In this document: piece by piece, positions 19,813-28,826 of the stretch
Layout of the letters: each line of letters opens with the position of its first letter
Numbering within the stretch: the stretch's first letter is position 1
Source of the DNA: Bacteroidota bacterium
Lineage (GTDB): Bacteria > Bacteroidota > Rhodothermia > Rhodothermales > Bin80
DNA: 62,036 bases
Assembly: GCA_026708685.1 (NCBI GenBank)
Contig: JAPOUL010000009.1
Coordinates: 1-62,036, forward strand
Direction of reading: 5' to 3'
Notes under the pieces: model-generated
Database searches by the model: none
The model's input: only the letters and a program-made list of their open reading frames with translations
What the model was told of the DNA's origin: nothing
Position numbers and translations under genes: made by a program

Positions 19813-21903
19813 TCAAAAATAGAATCGATAACTGAAGGATGGAATGATAGGAAAAATCGTGACCTTAGTTAAGGAACGCTCTTCCTGAATATATCCAAGA
19901 AATGGATCAAGTGACCGATAGTCACGAGGTTCTATGAAAAATGTATTGTGTCGATTGTAGGCATTATACAAGCTGACAATAAATTCGGACCGAGTTCTCT
20001 TTCCGGCAGGAAAATGTACTGAAAGATCCAAGCGGTGATACGATGGCATCCTGTAACTATTACGCGATTCATACACTTCAATCAGTTGACCTTCCTCCCT
20101 GTATTGTGAGGTGGGAAGACTTACAGAATGCCCCGTACTGAATACCCAAGTCAGAGAGTATGTTCTTCTGCCATGTTCACGAACGAGTGCTATAGAAATA
20201 TCATGTCTACGATCATATCGATGCGGAAAGCTTCGTCCCTGATTTAAATCAGGAAAACGGCGATTGGACCATGACAGAGTATAACCGATCCACCCTGTTG
20301 TCTTCCCTCTTTTTCGACGTAGAAGTATTTCAGTACCGTACGCCCACCCCCTTCCGGAAGTCACTACATCTTCCCAGTCTCGATTTGATCCAACAAAATT
20401 ACTACCAGCCTTATATGCAATGACTTGATCAATATTTTTATAGTATGCCTCAAGACTGACATCCAATGCTAGACGATCAAAAGTCCGCACTATACCACCG
20501 GCTACTTGCCAAGATTTCTGGGGTGGAATTCTGGATGTACTTGGTAGCCATAAATCCGTAGGAAGTCCAGTACCACTGTTGGATAACAACTGAATGTACT
20601 GTTGCATGTGAGCATAGGACAGTTTCAGCGCCCAGTCATTAGGCAGTACGTATGAAGTCGCGATACGGGGTTGCAATGAAGTATAGGTAGTAGCATTTGA
20701 GTGATATCCAGACATATGTACGCCTACATTCGCTTTAAAATTACGCGTCAATGTCATTTCGTCTTCTGCAAAAACATACCATTCTGTAGAATATACCTTG
20801 GAATGATCAACAACAATAGATGTGTCGATGTCCAATTCAGTATCTATTTCACTGTAAAACTGTCGAGTTGGAGTAAATTGATGACGAAGTAGAGATGAAC
20901 CGAAGCGTAGATGATGAGCTTGGTGAGGAAAGTATTCAAAATTTATTTTTGCACCATAGTCCATCAATCCACTTGAATATTGAGACATAAACTCAGTTCT
21001 ACCATTCACGTCAGACAATCGCGAATCGTCAAGAATCGCGGAGCGAAAACGGCTAAACAACAGTGTCGAATTGAGAAACATTCGTGAGTTGATCACACGA
21101 TTCCAGCGAGCCGTCATCGTCATGTTGCTCCACCCAATTTCAAAATCATACGCGTCCGTAACTCCACCTAATAACTCCTCTGAAGTCTCGTATCCTTTGT
21201 CGTTTCCAGCATAAAAACTCACATATATCCGATCACGCTGAGATGATTCCAGATTCAATTTTGCATTGACATCGTAAAAATAATACCCCCTCAGATAGTC
21301 ATCAGATCCACGAATCATTTGAATTCCCCGATGGATTGCATCCAAGTAGGTGGTACGTGCTGAAACGATGAATGAGCTTTTATCTTTGGCAATAGGGCCC
21401 TCCAATGTAATGCGGGATGCCACCAATCCTACTGCACCTCTGCCCTCAAAGCTTTTTCGATTACCCTCCCGCATGGTCACATCTAAAACCCCTGAAAGCC
21501 GTCCTCCATAGCGGGCTGGGAATCCCCCTTTGACTAATTCAGCACTGTTGATTGCATCAGTATTGAATGTGGACATAAACCCAAACAAATGACCAGCATT
21601 GTACACGGTCGCACCATCAAGTAGAATCAATGTCTCACCAGGATTTCCACCTCTCACATACAACCCAGAGGATCCTTCAGCACCAGACTGAATCCCTGGC
21701 ATCAATTGAAAAATTTTGAGTAGATCGGCTTCTCCAAGAAGATTTGGCAAGGATTCAACTTCTGCCATTGAGATCTTCACCGTACTCATCTGAAGCTGCT
21801 CTTGAAGTCCCTCATATTCATCCGCCTCTACGACCAACAGCGAATCAAACTCAATCACCGTTGGTTGCATTTCAATCCTTTGTATTTCTTCAGATAGGGG
21901 GGA
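19813..21903 (-). pseudogene. TonB-dependent receptor, C-terminal part (gene split by IS110 element)
   Basis: The open frame carries the plug domain (ESLPNLLGEADLLKIFQLMPG, GSSGLYVRGGNPGETLILLDG) and the whole barrel, ending in SYRFYF with a terminal Phe. It has no signal peptide or CarboxypepD_reg domain. Upstream of the first Met (21870) the frame continues as PLSEEIQRIE, which aligns with SSQENRVLDL of the intact paralogue at 26448-28826. Those residues end at a C-tract (minus strand) that recurs 2.74 kb away at the end of the N-terminal fragment (24641-24913). The gene was therefore cut in the linker between the regulatory domain and the plug. An internal start could give a cytoplasmic, non-functional barrel. 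Confidence 0.85.
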
Positions 21904-22311
21904 CTCCCTACCATTTTACCAAATTTTTTAGCTCAAAAACAGAAAAAAATTTAAATTTGATGGATTGACTCTAAAAACAGTTCCAAATGATGTCGATCAG
22001 CGGCCAAAATTTAAACATTTCATCAACGAAGCAACTGAATGGATTGCAGATCACTTGACGATGAACGAACATCACATGAGTTTAGCATTGATCGAAAGCG
22101 GCCACCATAAAAAAGCAGAGCTCAGCATGATCAGTGCACCTCCACTGTGAATGAGACTCAGTTCGTCCACGATTTGATGGGTTGCTGAGCCCTCAGCACA
22201 TACCTGCTACTCTGAATGAGCTCATCGGTATATATGCAGAGGAATCTGATGTACGAATAAGTCCAACCAGAGATTGATGGTTCAGAGTGCCATCCAGCTA
22301 CTTTATATTGT

Positions 22312-22330
22312 GCTGTGAGTGTCTCACAGC
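22312..22330. promoter_or_regulatory. Palindrome upstream of the HTH passenger gene (candidate operator)
   Basis: GCTGTGAG (22312-22319), spacer TGT, CTCACAGC (22323-22330): 8-bp perfect arms. It lies 54 bp before the HTH gene start at 22384, close to an AT-rich TTTATATTG block. A binding site for the HTH protein itself is a reasonable guess; no direct evidence. Confidence 0.5.
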
Positions 22331-22383
22331 CAATACGCACACCACTTTTTTGTATCTTTTTGATCCTCTACCATCAATGCTTT

Positions 22384-22731
22384 ATGGATTTCTATGAATC
22401 AAGGGCTCTGTTCCACCGTGCCAGACTGATCCAGTGGGGACTAAGAACCCCTTTTTCAAAAGATTCACGTTCAGATACCGCACGAACATCGGTACTGTTG
22501 TTTTTAGTCTCCGTCATGCGGCTCCGCTCCTCTCGCGAGGGGGGTGCTTATACCGTCCAGTGCAGGACCGATGAGATTGCCTATGAAACAGGTCTGTCCG
22601 TACGGCAGGTACAACGCGTCCTCCAGTGGTTTTGTGAGCAGGGATACATCAGTCTTCCACAGCGGGGCTATATTTCCATGATCAAGACTACATTCCCAGA
22701 CCCTGATGCAGGATGTTGTATTGATCCATAG
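22384..22731 (+). CDS. Winged-helix / HTH protein inside the IS110 element
   Basis: Protein of 115 residues from the ATG at 22384; the frame is open to 22315 but the extra residues overlap the palindrome. A clear HTH reads CRTDEIAYETGLSVRQVQRV followed by LQWFCEQGYISLPQRG, which is the wing. The same layout occurs in phage and plasmid replication or regulatory proteins with a Q-V-Q/R-A-L recognition helix. It is encoded antisense to the transposase. It is not a known IS110 component, so it is a passenger or a remnant of an older insertion. Role unknown; a regulator of transposition or of the palindrome upstream is only a guess. Confidence 0.55.
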   Translation: MDFYESRALFHRARLIQWGLRTPFSKDSRSDTARTSVLLFLVSVMRLRSSREGGAYTVQCRTDEIAYETGLSVRQVQRVLQWFCEQGYISLPQRGYISMIKTTFPDPDAGCCIDP

Positions 22732-22893
22732 GAATCCATTCCGTCAAACCACATAGGCTCAAATTGATCCATCCCTCCCAACATTCGGTTCGTCCTACCT
22801 CATCCATGCAAAGCAGAGAGCCAGAATAGATGTGGTTCATCGGCCATGTCTCAAGATTCAGAGGTCATGATCAACGATAGACTGACCAGACAG

Positions 22894-22922
22894 AACGTCA
22901 AAAGTATATAGTATTTGACGTT
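22894..22922. terminator. Hairpin with T-run between HTH gene and transposase 3' end
   Basis: AACGTCAAA (22894-22902) pairs with TTTGACGTT (22914-22922); loop 11 nt, followed on the plus strand by TTTT at 22921-22924. It could end transcription in the plus direction. Read on the minus strand it follows the transposase stop by about 85 bp but lacks a long T-run there. Low GC in the stem makes it a weak terminator. Confidence 0.35.
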
Positions 22923-23006
22923 TTACCAGGACAAATGCCTGCAACTTGCGTCACAAATAGCGAGAGATTCAAAGTTCATGTCTGAACCTTGAGAGCAAGA
23001 TGTGCT

Positions 23007-24305
23007 CTACTGTGCTTTCGCACCATCACTTTGACCAGCATGTTGCCTTGATCCATGATCGGGATCAAAGAGCGTTCTGTCTCGAAGCATGACGCAGGCG
23101 ATATAGAGCAATCGATCTCCAATGGTACGAAGGGCTCTACCGTGGCTATGACCCCGACGGCGGAGCTCTTTGTATTTTGATTTACTGACAGGATCATGCA
23201 GAGAGGCCACTCTGCTCCAGTGATAGGCCGCCTCCACCAGTCGTCCGTGACAAGCTTTTCGTTGGATCACATGATTGGACTTCCCTGAACGCTGCGTGAC
23301 GGGTGCAACACCGCATAAACATCGCAGTGCAGGATAATTCTGCGTTTTCAATAAGGAATGTGCCTCGGCATAAAGAGAGGCCAGAACGATGGTTCCTACC
23401 CCTGGTATGGAGGTGAGAATATCGATATTGCTGAGGATCTGTTGATCAGGTGATGAGCACTCCTCTGTCTGAGAAGAGAGTTCCTCTTTGTGCAACAAGT
23501 TCAGGATGGTCTTGATGGTTTGATCCGCCGTGTTGATCTGCTTCTCATTTAAGTCCAGTTTTTGAAGGAGAATTTGGATATGTGAAGTTGATGCATCCAT
23601 GACTCCATCAGCGACAATGATCGGTGTCTCTCGTAATGTTTTGAGTACACTCTCGGCATTGATACGCCGAATGCGATATTGTTTGAGAAGTCTCTGTACG
23701 GAGGTGCTCCGAACCCGACCTGCACGATCCGGCGTTGGCATGTGCATCCACAGATTTCTCAACACGGGGGAATACAGTTGGAATCCAAGCTTCGTGTACT
23801 GTGGAAAATAACGCCAGAGTTGAGCTCTTAACTTATGGGTGATGCGCGTGCGCTCAATAGCAAGATCACTTTTGATTCTTGACCATTCACGGAGTTGTAC
23901 GATCTGTGGATGTACAGAACCGAGTTGCCGTAGGCAACCAGGATCGGTTCTTAGTATATCGGCAAGCACGCGAGCATCTAGGCGATCATCTTTGGCACCA
24001 GCGGGAGAGAATCGATCACGGAATCGGTCTAACTGTTTTGGATTGATGGAGAATACCTGAAAGCCTCGGTCAAGAAGAGCGTCTACAATCGGACCATGAG
24101 GAACTTCTATATTGACGGCGATCTCTGACACAGGGCAGTTCCCTTGATCAAGAATCCAATCAATGAGTTGAGTGATCCCCTCACCCGAATGGGGGAATGC
24201 CTTCTCTCCCAAGACATCACTGTCGGGGGTGAGCACACATACTTGGTGGAACTCAGAGCCCCAGTCAATCCCCACCAGAAGCGAGAAAAGAAACTTTTTG
24301 GACAT
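23007..24305 (-). CDS. IS110-family transposase (DEDD recombinase)
   Basis: Protein of 432 residues. The N-terminal RuvC-like DEDD domain shows GIDWGSE (D14), NIEVP (E67) and AKDDRLDARVLA (D107, D110). The C-terminal Transposase_20 part has SIPGVGTIVLASL and CGVAPVTQRSGKS, which holds the catalytic Ser region. These enzymes are guided by an element-encoded bridge (seeker) RNA. All catalytic motifs are visible and the frame is intact, so it is probably active. The leader upstream is unusually long and structured, as in the IS110 (not IS1111) subgroup, whose guide RNA is encoded upstream of the transposase. Confidence 0.93.
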   Translation of the reverse strand: MSKKFLFSLLVGIDWGSEFHQVCVLTPDSDVLGEKAFPHSGEGITQLIDWILDQGNCPVSEIAVNIEVPHGPIVDALLDRGFQVFSINPKQLDRFRDRFSPAGAKDDRLDARVLADILRTDPGCLRQLGSVHPQIVQLREWSRIKSDLAIERTRITHKLRAQLWRYFPQYTKLGFQLYSPVLRNLWMHMPTPDRAGRVRSTSVQRLLKQYRIRRINAESVLKTLRETPIIVADGVMDASTSHIQILLQKLDLNEKQINTADQTIKTILNLLHKEELSSQTEECSSPDQQILSNIDILTSIPGVGTIVLASLYAEAHSLLKTQNYPALRCLCGVAPVTQRSGKSNHVIQRKACHGRLVEAAYHWSRVASLHDPVSKSKYKELRRRGHSHGRALRTIGDRLLYIACVMLRDRTLFDPDHGSRQHAGQSDGAKAQ

Positions 24306-24334
24306 AAGAATAGTATTTAAAGGGTTAGATGTTT

Positions 24335-24545
24335 GGGTAGCCGTGACGTCTCGTCTTCCCCTGTATTGGTGCTCAAAGGCACTGACTCCCTACTGGACGT
24401 ATGTCAACGGCACTCCCTGGGGCACAGATCCCCCCCAGGTGCTCAAAGGCACAGGGGGCTAATGGTTGCTCCCAGGGAGGTACCCTAACAAAAAAGGATG
24501 TAAAACCGCTTTAACGGATAAGAAGTCGTTTTATACTGGTACTGT
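24335..24545 (-). ncRNA. Candidate bridge RNA of the IS110 element
   Basis: On the minus strand three structures follow each other: a 5' stem-loop (24536-24499, TAAAAC/GTTTTA arms), a loop closed by CTCCCTGGG/CCCAGGGAG (24479-24413), and a loop closed by GCCGTTGAC/GTCACGGC (24411-24340). Both loops carry the same apical hairpin GTGCCTTTGAGCAC. In the second loop the 5' side reads GTAGGGAGTC, identical to the element's right end (minus strand, 21911-21902), and the 3' side reads ATACAGGGG, complementary to the left-end CCCCTGTAT. This is the LDG/RDG order of a donor-binding loop. The first loop contains CCCCCT and GGGGGGG, fitting the C-tract of the target. Boundaries are approximate. Confidence 0.72.
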
Positions 24546-24640
24546 GCCCAATAAAAAAATAAAAGTTCAAACAACTTTAATTTTTCACGACCCTGCTTCC
24601 TTAAAAATCATCACAATTTCACAACGCCTACAATATACAG

Positions 24641-24913
24641 GGGGTAAAATACTAAGGTTTGCGGTTCAAACCCTTGATAAGTAAATCGAATCAGAGCAGA
24701 ATCACTCAGGACAGTCAGGCTAAAAAACCCATACTGATTTGTGGATGTACCTTGATTTAGATTGATTTCGTAAACATTCGTGCCAACCAGAACTTCTCCA
24801 TTGGTGGCATCCGTCACATAACCACTCACTACAAAGGATTGCTGAGCGATCGATTGATCTATCCTTACAAATACAATAACGAGAAGAAGGAGGAGCCTCA
24901 TGATCATTATCAT
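24641..24913 (-). pseudogene. TonB-dependent receptor, N-terminal part (gene split by IS110 element)
   Basis: Reading down from the ATG at 24913, the fragment encodes a signal peptide (MRLLLLLVIVFVRIDQSIAQ) and a CarboxypepD_reg domain (VVSGYVTDATNGEVLVGTNV, STNQYGFFSLTV, IRFTYQGFEPQTLVF). It matches residues 1 to about 90 of the paralogue at 26448-28826. Native sequence ends at FYP; the remaining residues to the stop at 24611 are encoded by the IS element. A frame to 24919 starts with TTG and is less likely. The truncated product would be an exported domain without a plug or barrel. Confidence 0.82.
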
Positions 24914-25094
24914 CACCAATGAATGGTTAGGATTTCAGGTACAATGAGCAGTGGATTTGAAGCTATTCTGAATGTCCTCTTGAATAGTATTAGTGGATCA
25001 AGGCTATCTAAAATAGATAGTCTTAGTGTTACATCGAATTTTGTGTAATGTTTTCATAGAAATTGTTAATAATCTGTTAAGATGCCCCACAAAG

Positions 25095-25226
25095 ATGATC
25101 TTAATCTCTACTGAAAAGCGTAAATACCGAGAAACAAATCCTCTGACTCACCGAGAAATTTTACATCAAGATTTCTTGAATGAGCTTCAAAGAATAGGAA
25201 TGATTGAATCCGCGATCAATATATGA
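25095..25226 (+). pseudogene. Possible fragment of a HigA-like antitoxin
   Basis: A 43-codon frame contains NPLTHREILHQDFLNELQ, close in pattern to the start of HigA/VapI antitoxins (HPGEILREEFL). It stops before the HTH that should follow, and no HigB toxin is recognisable upstream. It lies in the 390-bp interval between the split receptor and the DUF4249 gene, which otherwise shows nothing. It could also be chance; the match covers only about 15 residues. Confidence 0.3.
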
Positions 25227-25309
25227 TTGTGTCCATACGAAACGGTAAGTACCTATCCGTTCAAGTGATCAAGCAGTTTTGTTCAGGTCTTGAAGTGATG
25301 TCCAATGGA

Positions 25310-26296
25310 TCACTCCATTTCCGATAGATCAAATACTCGATAACTCACCGAAGATCCAGCAAAAACTCCACGCCCCCCTTCAACATTAGAATAGAGGTTG
25401 ACAGGCTCCTCAAACCCTTCAAAATCTAGCTGACTTTCAAGAGAACTGTGATACTCAATGTACTCTGGACTCAAAGATTGTACAACGAGAAGAACAAAGC
25501 GTGAATCCTGACTGGGTTGCTCTTGATCTCCTAAAAAATTTTCGAAGTAATTGGTAGTAAGTTCAAAGTCTATTCTTGACTGGTCCTGAAAAGAACGGTT
25601 AGATAAGAGACCAATGGAGCAGTACTCGCTTCCATCTGAAACTTCAACACCTATGGGGTTGAGCACATCCTCATAATAACAATACCAGCGTCGACTATCA
25701 TGCCGGATATACATTGTAGATAGTGAAAAACTTTCCCATCCAAGTGTACTATCTACGTAGGAGCCCTGAAAAGTGCTGAACCCAAAATAGTGTAACCCAG
25801 AAGGATTTTCTATACTGAATTTGATCCGATACTCTTCAGTATAAAATGGATCTTCAATATCGTCAAATTCTTCTATGTCTACATCCAACAGAACGGGGGG
25901 AGGAGGAGCCATTGATGTGGCCGATATGGAGGTGAACCCAGGTGCCTCAACAACGATTCGATAGAGCGTCTCAGATGCAGGGGTATGATTTAATGATGAC
26001 ACATACCAAAAAGAAGAGTCTGCCCGAGGAACCAAGCGATCAACTAGCAGATCACCGTCGTAAATCATCACAGTGGCATTGTGTACAAATATATCAACAG
26101 AGTCAGGATGTACAGATAAAGGAATCGTAGATGTAAGCTGGGCAACCCACGATGAATCTGGCGAAAATTTACTCACAATATACAGTTCAGGATCGTAATC
26201 TGGGGGATCTATTTCGATCACGGTTTCACATGCAGACAAAAATACCGCACACATAACCAACACCGCTACATACAAAGTTCTAAATCGTGACATCAT
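25310..26296 (-). CDS. DUF4249 lipoprotein (partner of the intact TonB receptor)
   Basis: Protein of 328 residues from the ATG at 26296, which gives a normal-length lipoprotein signal (MMSRFRTLYVAVLVMC...LSAC, C22). Frames reach a TTG at 26338 and an ATG at 26326, giving longer leaders. The DUF4249 wording is ETVIEIDPPDYDPELYIVSKF, then NATVMIYDG and ETLYRIVVEAPGF. It is paralogous to 18568-19809. It follows the intact receptor by about 150 bp on the same strand, repeating the receptor-then-DUF4249 order of the other unit. Confidence 0.8.
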   Translation of the reverse strand: MMSRFRTLYVAVLVMCAVFLSACETVIEIDPPDYDPELYIVSKFSPDSSWVAQLTSTIPLSVHPDSVDIFVHNATVMIYDGDLLVDRLVPRADSSFWYVSSLNHTPASETLYRIVVEAPGFTSISATSMAPPPPVLLDVDIEEFDDIEDPFYTEEYRIKFSIENPSGLHYFGFSTFQGSYVDSTLGWESFSLSTMYIRHDSRRWYCYYEDVLNPIGVEVSDGSEYCSIGLLSNRSFQDQSRIDFELTTNYFENFLGDQEQPSQDSRFVLLVVQSLSPEYIEYHSSLESQLDFEGFEEPVNLYSNVEGGRGVFAGSSVSYRVFDLSEME

Positions 26297-26447
26297 CCAT
26301 AGATTTTTACGTTTCAGCATCCTCATAAATGGAGGCAAACAATGACTATGCTCAACGAAATGGATCGGAGATCCCCATCGGATGGGTGAGCATCAAAGCA
26401 TTCGGCACGCATTGGAAAGTGCATATGCAAATGTTGAATCAGGTTCG

Positions 26448-28826
26448 TTAAAAAGATAATTGATAGCTCACAGCAGGAATAATCGGCAAAATGGAAAGCT
26501 TCTTGAACACTCGTACCCCTTCATCATTATATCCACGAAAAATACCGAATGTATTTCTCCTGTTATATGTATTATAGGTTCCAAACGAAAGAATACGATT
26601 GAATCTAGAACCACGCCGATGTAATCGTACCCCTAAATCAAGGCGATGATACGCTGGGATTTGAAAACCATTACGAGAACTCTGAATACTATAAAAACTC
26701 AAATATTCATCTGGGGTCCAAGGAAATGCAACCCTGGAAGAAAATGAACTTTCAGACAAAACTTCTCCGACGGGAAGCGTTACAGATTGTCCCGTACCAT
26801 ACACCCATGAAGCACTAAAGTCAACTTTAGGACTAAACTCATGACTGATGACCAGAGATGCGTCATGCCTCCGGTCGTATCGGTAAGGAAACCAGTTTCC
26901 AAGATTGATTTCGTCAAACTGTCGACGACTCCAAGAAAGAGTATATCCGATCCAACCCGTGGTTTTTCCGACTTTTTTCTGAAAAAATAATTCTCCTCCG
27001 TAGGCACGCCCACGACCTGATGTTACACGGTCTTCCCAGTTTCCAAAGGCAGCATCAAAATAGTCAGCCCCTTCCTTGTACTCAATGAGATGATCCATCC
27101 ATTTGTAGTATCCCTCTATGGATAACTCATAGTTTCCGTCCGAAAATAATTGAACGAACCCAGCTGCGATTTGTAATGATTGCTGTGGCTGAACTCTTGA
27201 TGTAGACGGAACCCAAAGATCCGTAGGAAGAGATAAACCACTCGTTGTTGATAGCAGATGAATGTATTGTTGCATCTGGACGACAGATGCTTTCACGCTC
27301 GTGTTAGAGCTCACTCGTAGAAGTGCAGATACACGTGGTTCAACGGACAAATAATTCTCACCGTCAATCCAAAATCCTGAGGCGTGAACGCCAACATTCA
27401 AGCGTAATCGTGAACTGAGTCTCCAGTCGTCCTCCACATAGACTTGTGCTTGACGGCCATAAGAACGCCGATTAGGACTCGCTAAAGAATCCTCGATCGC
27501 ATCCCCTATCCGATATATTTCTTCAAATGCGCCTGTAAGAAAAGAATGCAGGATACCACTCGCCCCCAATCGAATACTGTGATAACTATTCGGAATAAAT
27601 TCTACATCAACACGTGCATGCAAATCACGGATTCCCGATTCAAATGAATCCTGATATCCATATCGCCCACCATCTGAGTTGTATTGATATTGATTGCTCA
27701 CTTGGAGTGCATAATTGGTGTATCCTACCAACACATTCGAAAACACCCGCGGTCCAAAAATATGATTCCAACGGAGGGTGGAAGCTACGTTTCTCCATCC
27801 TAGTTTGGCTTCATCAAATTCTTCATTTGTACCATTGGAATTATAGTTGAAACTTGAAAATAAACGATCGGCTCCTGCATAGCCACTTAAATAGATTCGA
27901 TCTCTGGGTGATAAGATCACATTGGCCTTTGCATTCAAATCATAGAAATGATACCCAAAATCTTCTTCACTACGATCAATAAAGGGACGAATGAGAAGAT
28001 CGGCATAGGAGCGTCGGGCAGAAATCAGAAACGATGCCTTATCACGCTTGATGGGCCCTTCCAGCGTCATCCGAGATGCGAGTAATCCGATGGCCCCCGT
28101 CCCCGAAAATCGCTTCATATTTCCCTCTTTCATGGTCAAGTCAATCACCGAAGAGAGCCTCCCACCATAACGTGCTGGAAATCCCCCCTTCAGAAGACGC
28201 ACATCTTTGATTGCATCGGAGTTGAATGTCCCCAAAAAGCCAAATAAATGACTGGGGTTATAGATTGGGGTTCCATCCAATAAGTAGAGGTTTTGATCCG
28301 GCCCGCCGCCGCGGACATATAATCCCGTGGAGCCTTCTACCCCCGACTGAACCCCTGGCATCAATTGCAAAATTCGTAAGACATCAGGTTCTCCGAGAAT
28401 GGACGGAAGATTCTGTATATCTTGAATTGGAATGGTAACCCCACTCATCTGTGTACTTTGAAGAATGGACTCCGCAGTGGCAGTTACCTCCACTTCTTCC
28501 AGTCCAAGCGTAGCTGGGATCAAAGAAAGATCAAGGACTCTATTTTCCTGAGAAGAAAAATTGAGCACTTGAGAGTTGTACGCGATATGACTGACCACCA
28601 TACGCACACTATCGGTCGTAGCGATCGTCAGACTATAATAGCCGTACTGGTTTGAGGTCGTACCCGTCTCCAGTGCTGCAACATACAACGCGGCACCAAC
28701 CACCGATTCACCGGTTTCGGAATCAATCACGGTCCCACTGATTGTAATCTGATTCTCCTGTGCAAAGCCAGTATCAATACTGAAAAGAATCAAGCAAAGC
28801 CCACTGAAAAACTTGAGTAATGTCAT
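26448..28826 (-). CDS. TonB-dependent receptor with carboxypeptidase-regulatory domain
   Basis: Protein of 792 residues. Signal peptide (1-23, ending GFAQ), CarboxypepD_reg-like domain (about 26-110; ITISGTVIDSETGESVVGAA), plug (about 125-235; PSILGEPDVLRILQLMPG, STGLYVRGGGPDQNLYLLDG), then a 22-strand-type barrel ending SYQLSF. It imports a ligand with energy from TonB. The substrate is not visible, but the gene begins 4 bp after the sulfatase stop of the PSD1/DUF1501/sulfatase series, suggesting uptake of the released product. It is the intact homologue of the IS-split receptor. Confidence 0.9.
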   Translation of the reverse strand: MTLLKFFSGLCLILFSIDTGFAQENQITISGTVIDSETGESVVGAALYVAALETGTTSNQYGYYSLTIATTDSVRMVVSHIAYNSQVLNFSSQENRVLDLSLIPATLGLEEVEVTATAESILQSTQMSGVTIPIQDIQNLPSILGEPDVLRILQLMPGVQSGVEGSTGLYVRGGGPDQNLYLLDGTPIYNPSHLFGFLGTFNSDAIKDVRLLKGGFPARYGGRLSSVIDLTMKEGNMKRFSGTGAIGLLASRMTLEGPIKRDKASFLISARRSYADLLIRPFIDRSEEDFGYHFYDLNAKANVILSPRDRIYLSGYAGADRLFSSFNYNSNGTNEEFDEAKLGWRNVASTLRWNHIFGPRVFSNVLVGYTNYALQVSNQYQYNSDGGRYGYQDSFESGIRDLHARVDVEFIPNSYHSIRLGASGILHSFLTGAFEEIYRIGDAIEDSLASPNRRSYGRQAQVYVEDDWRLSSRLRLNVGVHASGFWIDGENYLSVEPRVSALLRVSSNTSVKASVVQMQQYIHLLSTTSGLSLPTDLWVPSTSRVQPQQSLQIAAGFVQLFSDGNYELSIEGYYKWMDHLIEYKEGADYFDAAFGNWEDRVTSGRGRAYGGELFFQKKVGKTTGWIGYTLSWSRRQFDEINLGNWFPYRYDRRHDASLVISHEFSPKVDFSASWVYGTGQSVTLPVGEVLSESSFSSRVAFPWTPDEYLSFYSIQSSRNGFQIPAYHRLDLGVRLHRRGSRFNRILSFGTYNTYNRRNTFGIFRGYNDEGVRVFKKLSILPIIPAVSYQLSF

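Follow-up and report, generated by a model that had tools for sequence, protein, structure and literature searches.

A probable IS621-type bridge RNA in the leader of an IS110-group element with a CC core

The question this locus raises is what the long non-coding left end of an IS110-group element encodes, and whether it has a say in where the element lands. The window, by which we mean the whole 62,036-nucleotide stretch analysed, carries one intact element of this group, sitting inside a TonB-receptor gene, and the long non-coding left end holds the RNA that concerns us, in a leader directly upstream of the recombinase start codon (24305). Our answer, to which we give a probability of about 95%, is that the leader encodes a bridge RNA of the IS621 type that would guide a DEDD/serine recombinase and, in the window, bring the element into a C-tract. 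We hold this view because the fold of the leader is preserved by compensatory change and all four of its guides track their DNA partners. The element is laid out as follows.

21901–24641, minus strand: IS110-group element, counted with one CC core per end (family motif and donor-guide matches; the rule is confirmed by the empty sites of relatives)
24640–24641, minus strand: left core CC, the final two C of a C5 run at 24644–24640 (sequence)
21901–21902, minus strand: right core CC, then four further C (sequence)
23007–24305, minus strand: IS110 recombinase, 432 aa, DEDD plus serine (domain, profile and structure-protein matches)

The recombinase matches PF01548 (DEDD RuvC-like) and PF02371 with its conserved serine, and all the catalytic residues are present: D14, E67, D107, D110 and S340, the assignment of E67 resting on an invariant column, since the phmmer alignment places E60 of IS621 two residues off. 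Two recombinases of solved structure match it weakly, those of IS621 (E 2e-6) and ISCro4 (PDB 9t56; E 1e-5), the latter a distant IS110 relative whose likeness is drawn from the recombinase sequence alone. The element has a single copy in its source genome. Its right non-coding part is about 1.1 kb long, compared with 0.86 kb in the genome we call G014 and about 0.2 kb at locus L002, so that the window element lacks the short right end that separates the IS110 group from IS1111, a feature that is a tendency of the group and not a strict criterion. Within this 3′ non-coding part lies an open reading frame of 138 aa (22315–22731, plus strand), antisense to the recombinase; its match to a Crp-type helix-turn-helix falls below threshold, and no relatives of it occurred in the other element copies examined. 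The interrupted gene encodes a carboxypeptidase-regulatory/TonB receptor, with its 5′ half at 24919–24611 and its 3′ half at 21870–19813, and uninterrupted homologues of about 72–76% protein identity are found in the same genus and in the source genome. A second receptor gene lies beside it (window 19813–28826), and the receptor belongs to a large paralogous set, with 11 matches in the source genome and up to 14 in members of the genus.

A single-sequence search with the window recombinase found no match in genome or viral contigs, and a phylum-wide sample held no close relative. A profile built from five proteins did find matches, giving 80 recombinase loci in public genomes, and a hidden Markov model of five leaders located a leader immediately before the recombinase at most of these loci. 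Our analyses draw on about 63 distinct leaders from several phyla; L004 and L012, decayed and with mismatching donor guides, and L015, a truncated copy, were left out of the statistics. The recombinase tree, with 57 sequences, takes in Pseudomonadota, Acidobacteriota, Gemmatimonadota, Binatota, Planctomycetota and Methylomirabilota as well as the window's own family, many of the hosts being metagenome bins whose individual names are unsure.

The initial annotation had described two consecutive stem-loops sharing one apical hairpin, and had proposed covariance folding across related elements as a check. The shared hairpin is there, at 24452–24439 and 24382–24369 of the minus strand, and to that fold we add an outer stem that closes both loops.

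24327–24493, minus strand: structured part of the bridge RNA (136.6 bits against the covariance model; structure test)
24481–24485, minus strand: outer stem, 5′ side, GGGTA (structure test)
24335–24339, minus strand: outer stem, 3′ side, TACCC (structure test)
24413–24479, minus strand: target-binding stem-loop (structure test, fold)
24439–24452, minus strand: apical hairpin 1, GTGCCTTTGAGCAC (structure test, sequence)
24340–24411, minus strand: donor-binding stem-loop (structure test, sequence)
24369–24382, minus strand: apical hairpin 2, GTGCCTTTGAGCAC (structure test, sequence)

In the structure test, which set 39 pairs against 41 leaders, 90.7% of cells were paired and both sides had changed in 31 of the 39 pairs. 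Compensatory change was strong, with 163 double-change cells compared with 54 in shuffles, and on every measure none of 500 shuffles did as well; sliding the structure along the alignment brought pairing down to 29–45%. The weakest helix was the outer stem (73.6% of cells paired). RNAalifold, unaided, found the two main stems with compensation in 23 of 34 pairs; it did not recover the outer stem and drew the first apical hairpin wrongly, and both were set by hand and then tested. The leader is also more stable than expected (z = −2.45), the target loop in particular (z = −3.25). Rfam returned no match for it.

The second loop was said to carry, on its 5′ side, a sequence repeated exactly at the right end of the element and, on its 3′ side, a complement of the left end. 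Both statements stood.

24384–24393, minus strand: left donor guide GTAGGGAGTC, repeated at the right end (exact match, covariation)
21903–21911, minus strand: left donor, the right-end terminus GTAGGGAGT (exact match to the guide)
24360–24366, minus strand: right donor guide ATACAGG, complement of left-end CCTGTAT, the next G being the handshake base (match, covariation)
24635–24639, minus strand: right donor, the left-end terminus TGTAT, paired by the right donor guide

Within the window GTAGGGAGTC occurs only at 24393–24384 and 21911–21902 of the minus strand, twice in 62 kb where 0.13 copies are expected, and none of 100 shuffles contained two. The 3′ side of the loop, ATACAGGGG (24366–24358, minus strand), has its complement at 24643–24635; taken alone this match is within chance (two copies in 4 of 100 shuffles), and its weight comes from its position beside the junction. 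Across relatives, whose right ends we located by the motif GGT....AGTCC with four letters free and whose left ends by CCTGT followed by AC, AT or TC, guide and DNA vary together, as had been predicted for a loop that reads the element ends. The variable positions 3 and 6 of the left donor guide agree with the right end in all 42 loci, and the guide is exact over 9 nt in 37 of them; the right donor guide is exact to the left end in 56 of 59. On the recombinase tree, left-donor positions 3 and 6 changed about five times each, with guide and end agreeing in 41 of 41, and the last base of the right donor changed three times (agreement 56/56), numbers of events too small for significance in any single one of these tree-based tests.

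In copies of genome G010 whose recombinase is broken or missing, each donor guide differs at one base from the element's own end. Four leaders there (L164, L169, L174 and L177) share the altered donor guides GTAGGGCGTG and GATACCGGG, both mismatches being A to C. Six more leaders, in G005, G006, G008 and G009, have no intact recombinase behind them (L163, L165, L166, L168, L170 and L172). These six may be fossils, or possibly elements moved in trans.

The exact ends of the element come from two relatives. Joining the flanks of a Labrenzia copy with one CC kept gives a sequence identical to the uninterrupted plasmid at 713 of 713 positions, and the joined flanks of a Sinorhizobium meliloti copy match theirs over 712 positions at 96.1%. 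The core of these two members is CC, because deletion with one CC kept reproduces the empty sites, and the shared end motif suggests that this extends to the whole family. It differs from the CT core with near-invariant T that one would look for in an IS621-like element. IS621 prefers CT, and the backbone of G63, which adjoins E60, reads its core T (PMC11208158). The matching loop in our clade runs E67-V/I-P-H-G71; its E, P, H and G do not vary among five members, and we infer that this EVPHG loop may account for the CC core. Once the ends are joined, a putative promoter spans the junction.

24632–24637, minus strand: putative −10, TATATT, of a circle-junction promoter (sequence; junction alignment)
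21917–21922, minus strand: putative −35, TTGGTA, of the same promoter, separated from the −10 by 18 nt in the joined ends (junction alignment)

A −35-like TTG stands at this fixed spot in 34 of 40 right ends, its promoter role being putative. At L038 the right end reads GGTGGGGAGTCC and passes directly into TGTACC, which is left-end-like and possibly represents a natural end-to-end junction.

What of the first loop? Its C- and G-tracts had been proposed to fit the C-tract at the insertion site, and they do: C5 lies on the 5′ side of the loop and G7 on the 3′ side, and the element lies in a C-run with 5 C at the left junction and 6 at the right. The target in the window reads TTTACCC-CC-CCCCT.

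24454–24462, minus strand: left target guide TTAGCCC-CC, site TTTACCC-CC, 7 of 9 (guide-site comparison)
24430–24436, minus strand: right target guide GGGGGGG, site CC-CCCCT, 6 of 7 plus a G-T wobble (guide-site comparison)

Among relatives both target guides follow the insertion site better than shuffles do, which bears out the further expectation that loop 1 should change with its site. The left guide matches its flank at 6.26 of 9 positions (4.73 shuffled), small register shifts being permitted equally for shuffled pairs, and the right guide at 5.92 of 7 (4.40 shuffled); in neither case did any of 10,000 shuffles reach the observed value. Right target guides that are not all G do as well, with 6.15 of 7 matched compared with 4.21 in shuffles (0/20,000), and those that match their sites exactly include GACAAGG, TGATGGG, GGATGGG, AGTGGGG, ACGGGGG, GGGTGGG, GGTGAGG and GGGGAGG. 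After strand exchange in IS621, target position 7 is paired by the base that follows the right donor guide (PMC11208158). At 53 of our 58 loci the corresponding handshake base pairs with that position, as against 42 when shuffled (0/20,000). Of the 63 leaders, 61 have an A following the right target guide, and donor position 7 is T.

These results bear on two other explanations. The leader lies directly upstream of the start codon and is strongly structured, as an attenuator or a translational control would be, and the matches to the element ends could then be subterminal repeats bound by the recombinase protein. We consider a purely cis-regulatory leader of this sort very improbable, since loop 1 matches a host site outside the element and varies with that site, the donor matches obey the strand logic of guides, and the handshake base covaries with the target. 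It is a different matter whether the relatives are functional and the window copy is inactive: the copy is single, its left target guide matches only 7 of 9, and decayed copies are numerous in the family. Against this stand an intact 432-aa recombinase with every catalytic residue, an intact leader and exact donor guides, and we regard an inactive copy as somewhat unlikely.

To return to the IS621-type bridge RNA, the steps by which it would act, namely transcription, RNA–protein binding, circle formation and strand exchange, are ones that we infer. The element would excise as a circle, joining the right end with its −35 to the left end with its −10 across the CC core, and the joined-end promoter would drive transcription of the left end to make the bridge RNA, which would be bound by the DEDD/serine recombinase. 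In loop 1, the left guide would base-pair to the bottom strand of the host target and the 7-nt right guide to its top strand, the core being part of the paired sequence; loop 2 would pair likewise with the joined element ends through GTAGGGAGT and ATACAGG. The recombinase would then exchange strands at CC, inserting the circle.

The sequence GGGGGGG is the right target guide in 21 of the 63 leaders. Where the right flank is known, C7 stands there in 12 of 17 leaders with this guide and in 3 of 25 with others, all three of which have near-G7 guides. A G7 guide thus appears to direct the window element into C-tracts, here a C-run in a receptor gene, and such guides would explain the C-tract location of some IS110 elements. 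The left C-run and right G-run guides are complementary to each other, because a C-tract target is nearly all C; in G7 leaders the two pair with each other in the predicted fold, a hairpin absent from the predicted fold of three leaders with other guides. One might imagine that these guides keep the target loop of the free RNA closed until C-tract DNA opens it, that the homopolymer register slips during insertion or excision so that C-runs at the junctions grow or shrink, and that the clade is adapted to a CC core, although we think it unlikely that this model is right.

Slippage matters for a further reading, in which the bridge RNA is real and the element itself supplies most of the right-end C-run, by carrying it or by growing it through slippage, so that targeting of C-tracts is overstated. 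The count of C at the junctions, 5 + 6 − 2 = 9, is out of frame for the interrupted gene, which takes 5, 8 or 11; at least one C has therefore been gained or lost, and the number of C in the window is higher than an in-frame C5 or C8 allele would give, the uninterrupted receptor homologues not discriminating C5 from C8 in the target. All five G014 copies have C11–C15 at the right end, and runs so long leave room for slippage or for element-carried C. The relative of the NGR234 site, 86% identical, reads TCCGCCC rather than C10, an empty site too diverged for counting C. On the other hand, the right end has just the CC of the core in members whose guide is not G7, G7 members most often have a run of exactly 7, as long as the guide itself, and both exact empty sites show precisely the predicted count of C, although those two members are not G7. 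Weighing these, we find it doubtful that targeting has been overstated. At L003 (about 1110–1135) a copy is inserted in the C-run at the apparent right end of another, GGCAGGAAGT followed by C7 and TGTAT, an arrangement which suggests that elements can stack at their own ends.

The bridge-RNA mechanism is a class known since 2024, and judged by every testable sequence feature the bridge RNA here is real; what makes it a variant of the IS621 type is its CC core, its long right end and its targeting of C-tracts. As in IS621 (PMC11208160, PMC11208158), the RNA lies in the left end upstream of a DEDD and serine recombinase, left guides are directed at the bottom strand and right guides at the top strand with the core included, a handshake base follows the right guide, and a motif that is putatively promoter-like spans the junction. 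The order of target loop and then donor loop, with its strand logic, is also that of IS621 (PMC11208160), as the initial annotation had recognized. Unlike IS621, the core is CC rather than CT with a near-invariant T, the right target guide has 7 nt rather than 4, an outer stem closes both loops, the element measures about 2.7 kb, of which 1.1 kb is right non-coding sequence, EVPHG rather than EATG stands at the catalytic glutamate, one third of members have C-tract targets, and the target guides of G7 leaders are mutually complementary and predicted to fold together. In the parts of its description that we draw on, which mention no donor-loop pairing, the seekRNA of ISEc21 (PMC11187229) is alike in coming from an upstream non-coding region, in its junction promoter, putative in our element, and in having its bottom-strand match 5′ of its top-strand match; it differs in its target, which is an IS3-family transposase gene, whereas many members here have C-tracts.

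The clade of bridge RNAs with a CC core can be followed through several phyla, with natural target guides ranging from G7 to quite different sequences that are exact to their own sites. It has therefore been repeatedly reprogrammed in nature. Its members are candidates for bridge-editing tools with another core, and the EVPHG and EATG loops offer a test of how the recombinase reads that core. The literature we searched, which left ISfinder and many relevant papers outside, contained no report of IS110 elements that target C-tracts. Relatives of the C-tract elements could be among the six drawn in PMC11208160, namely ISPpu10, ISAar29, ISHne5, ISCARN28, ISAzs32 and ISPa11.
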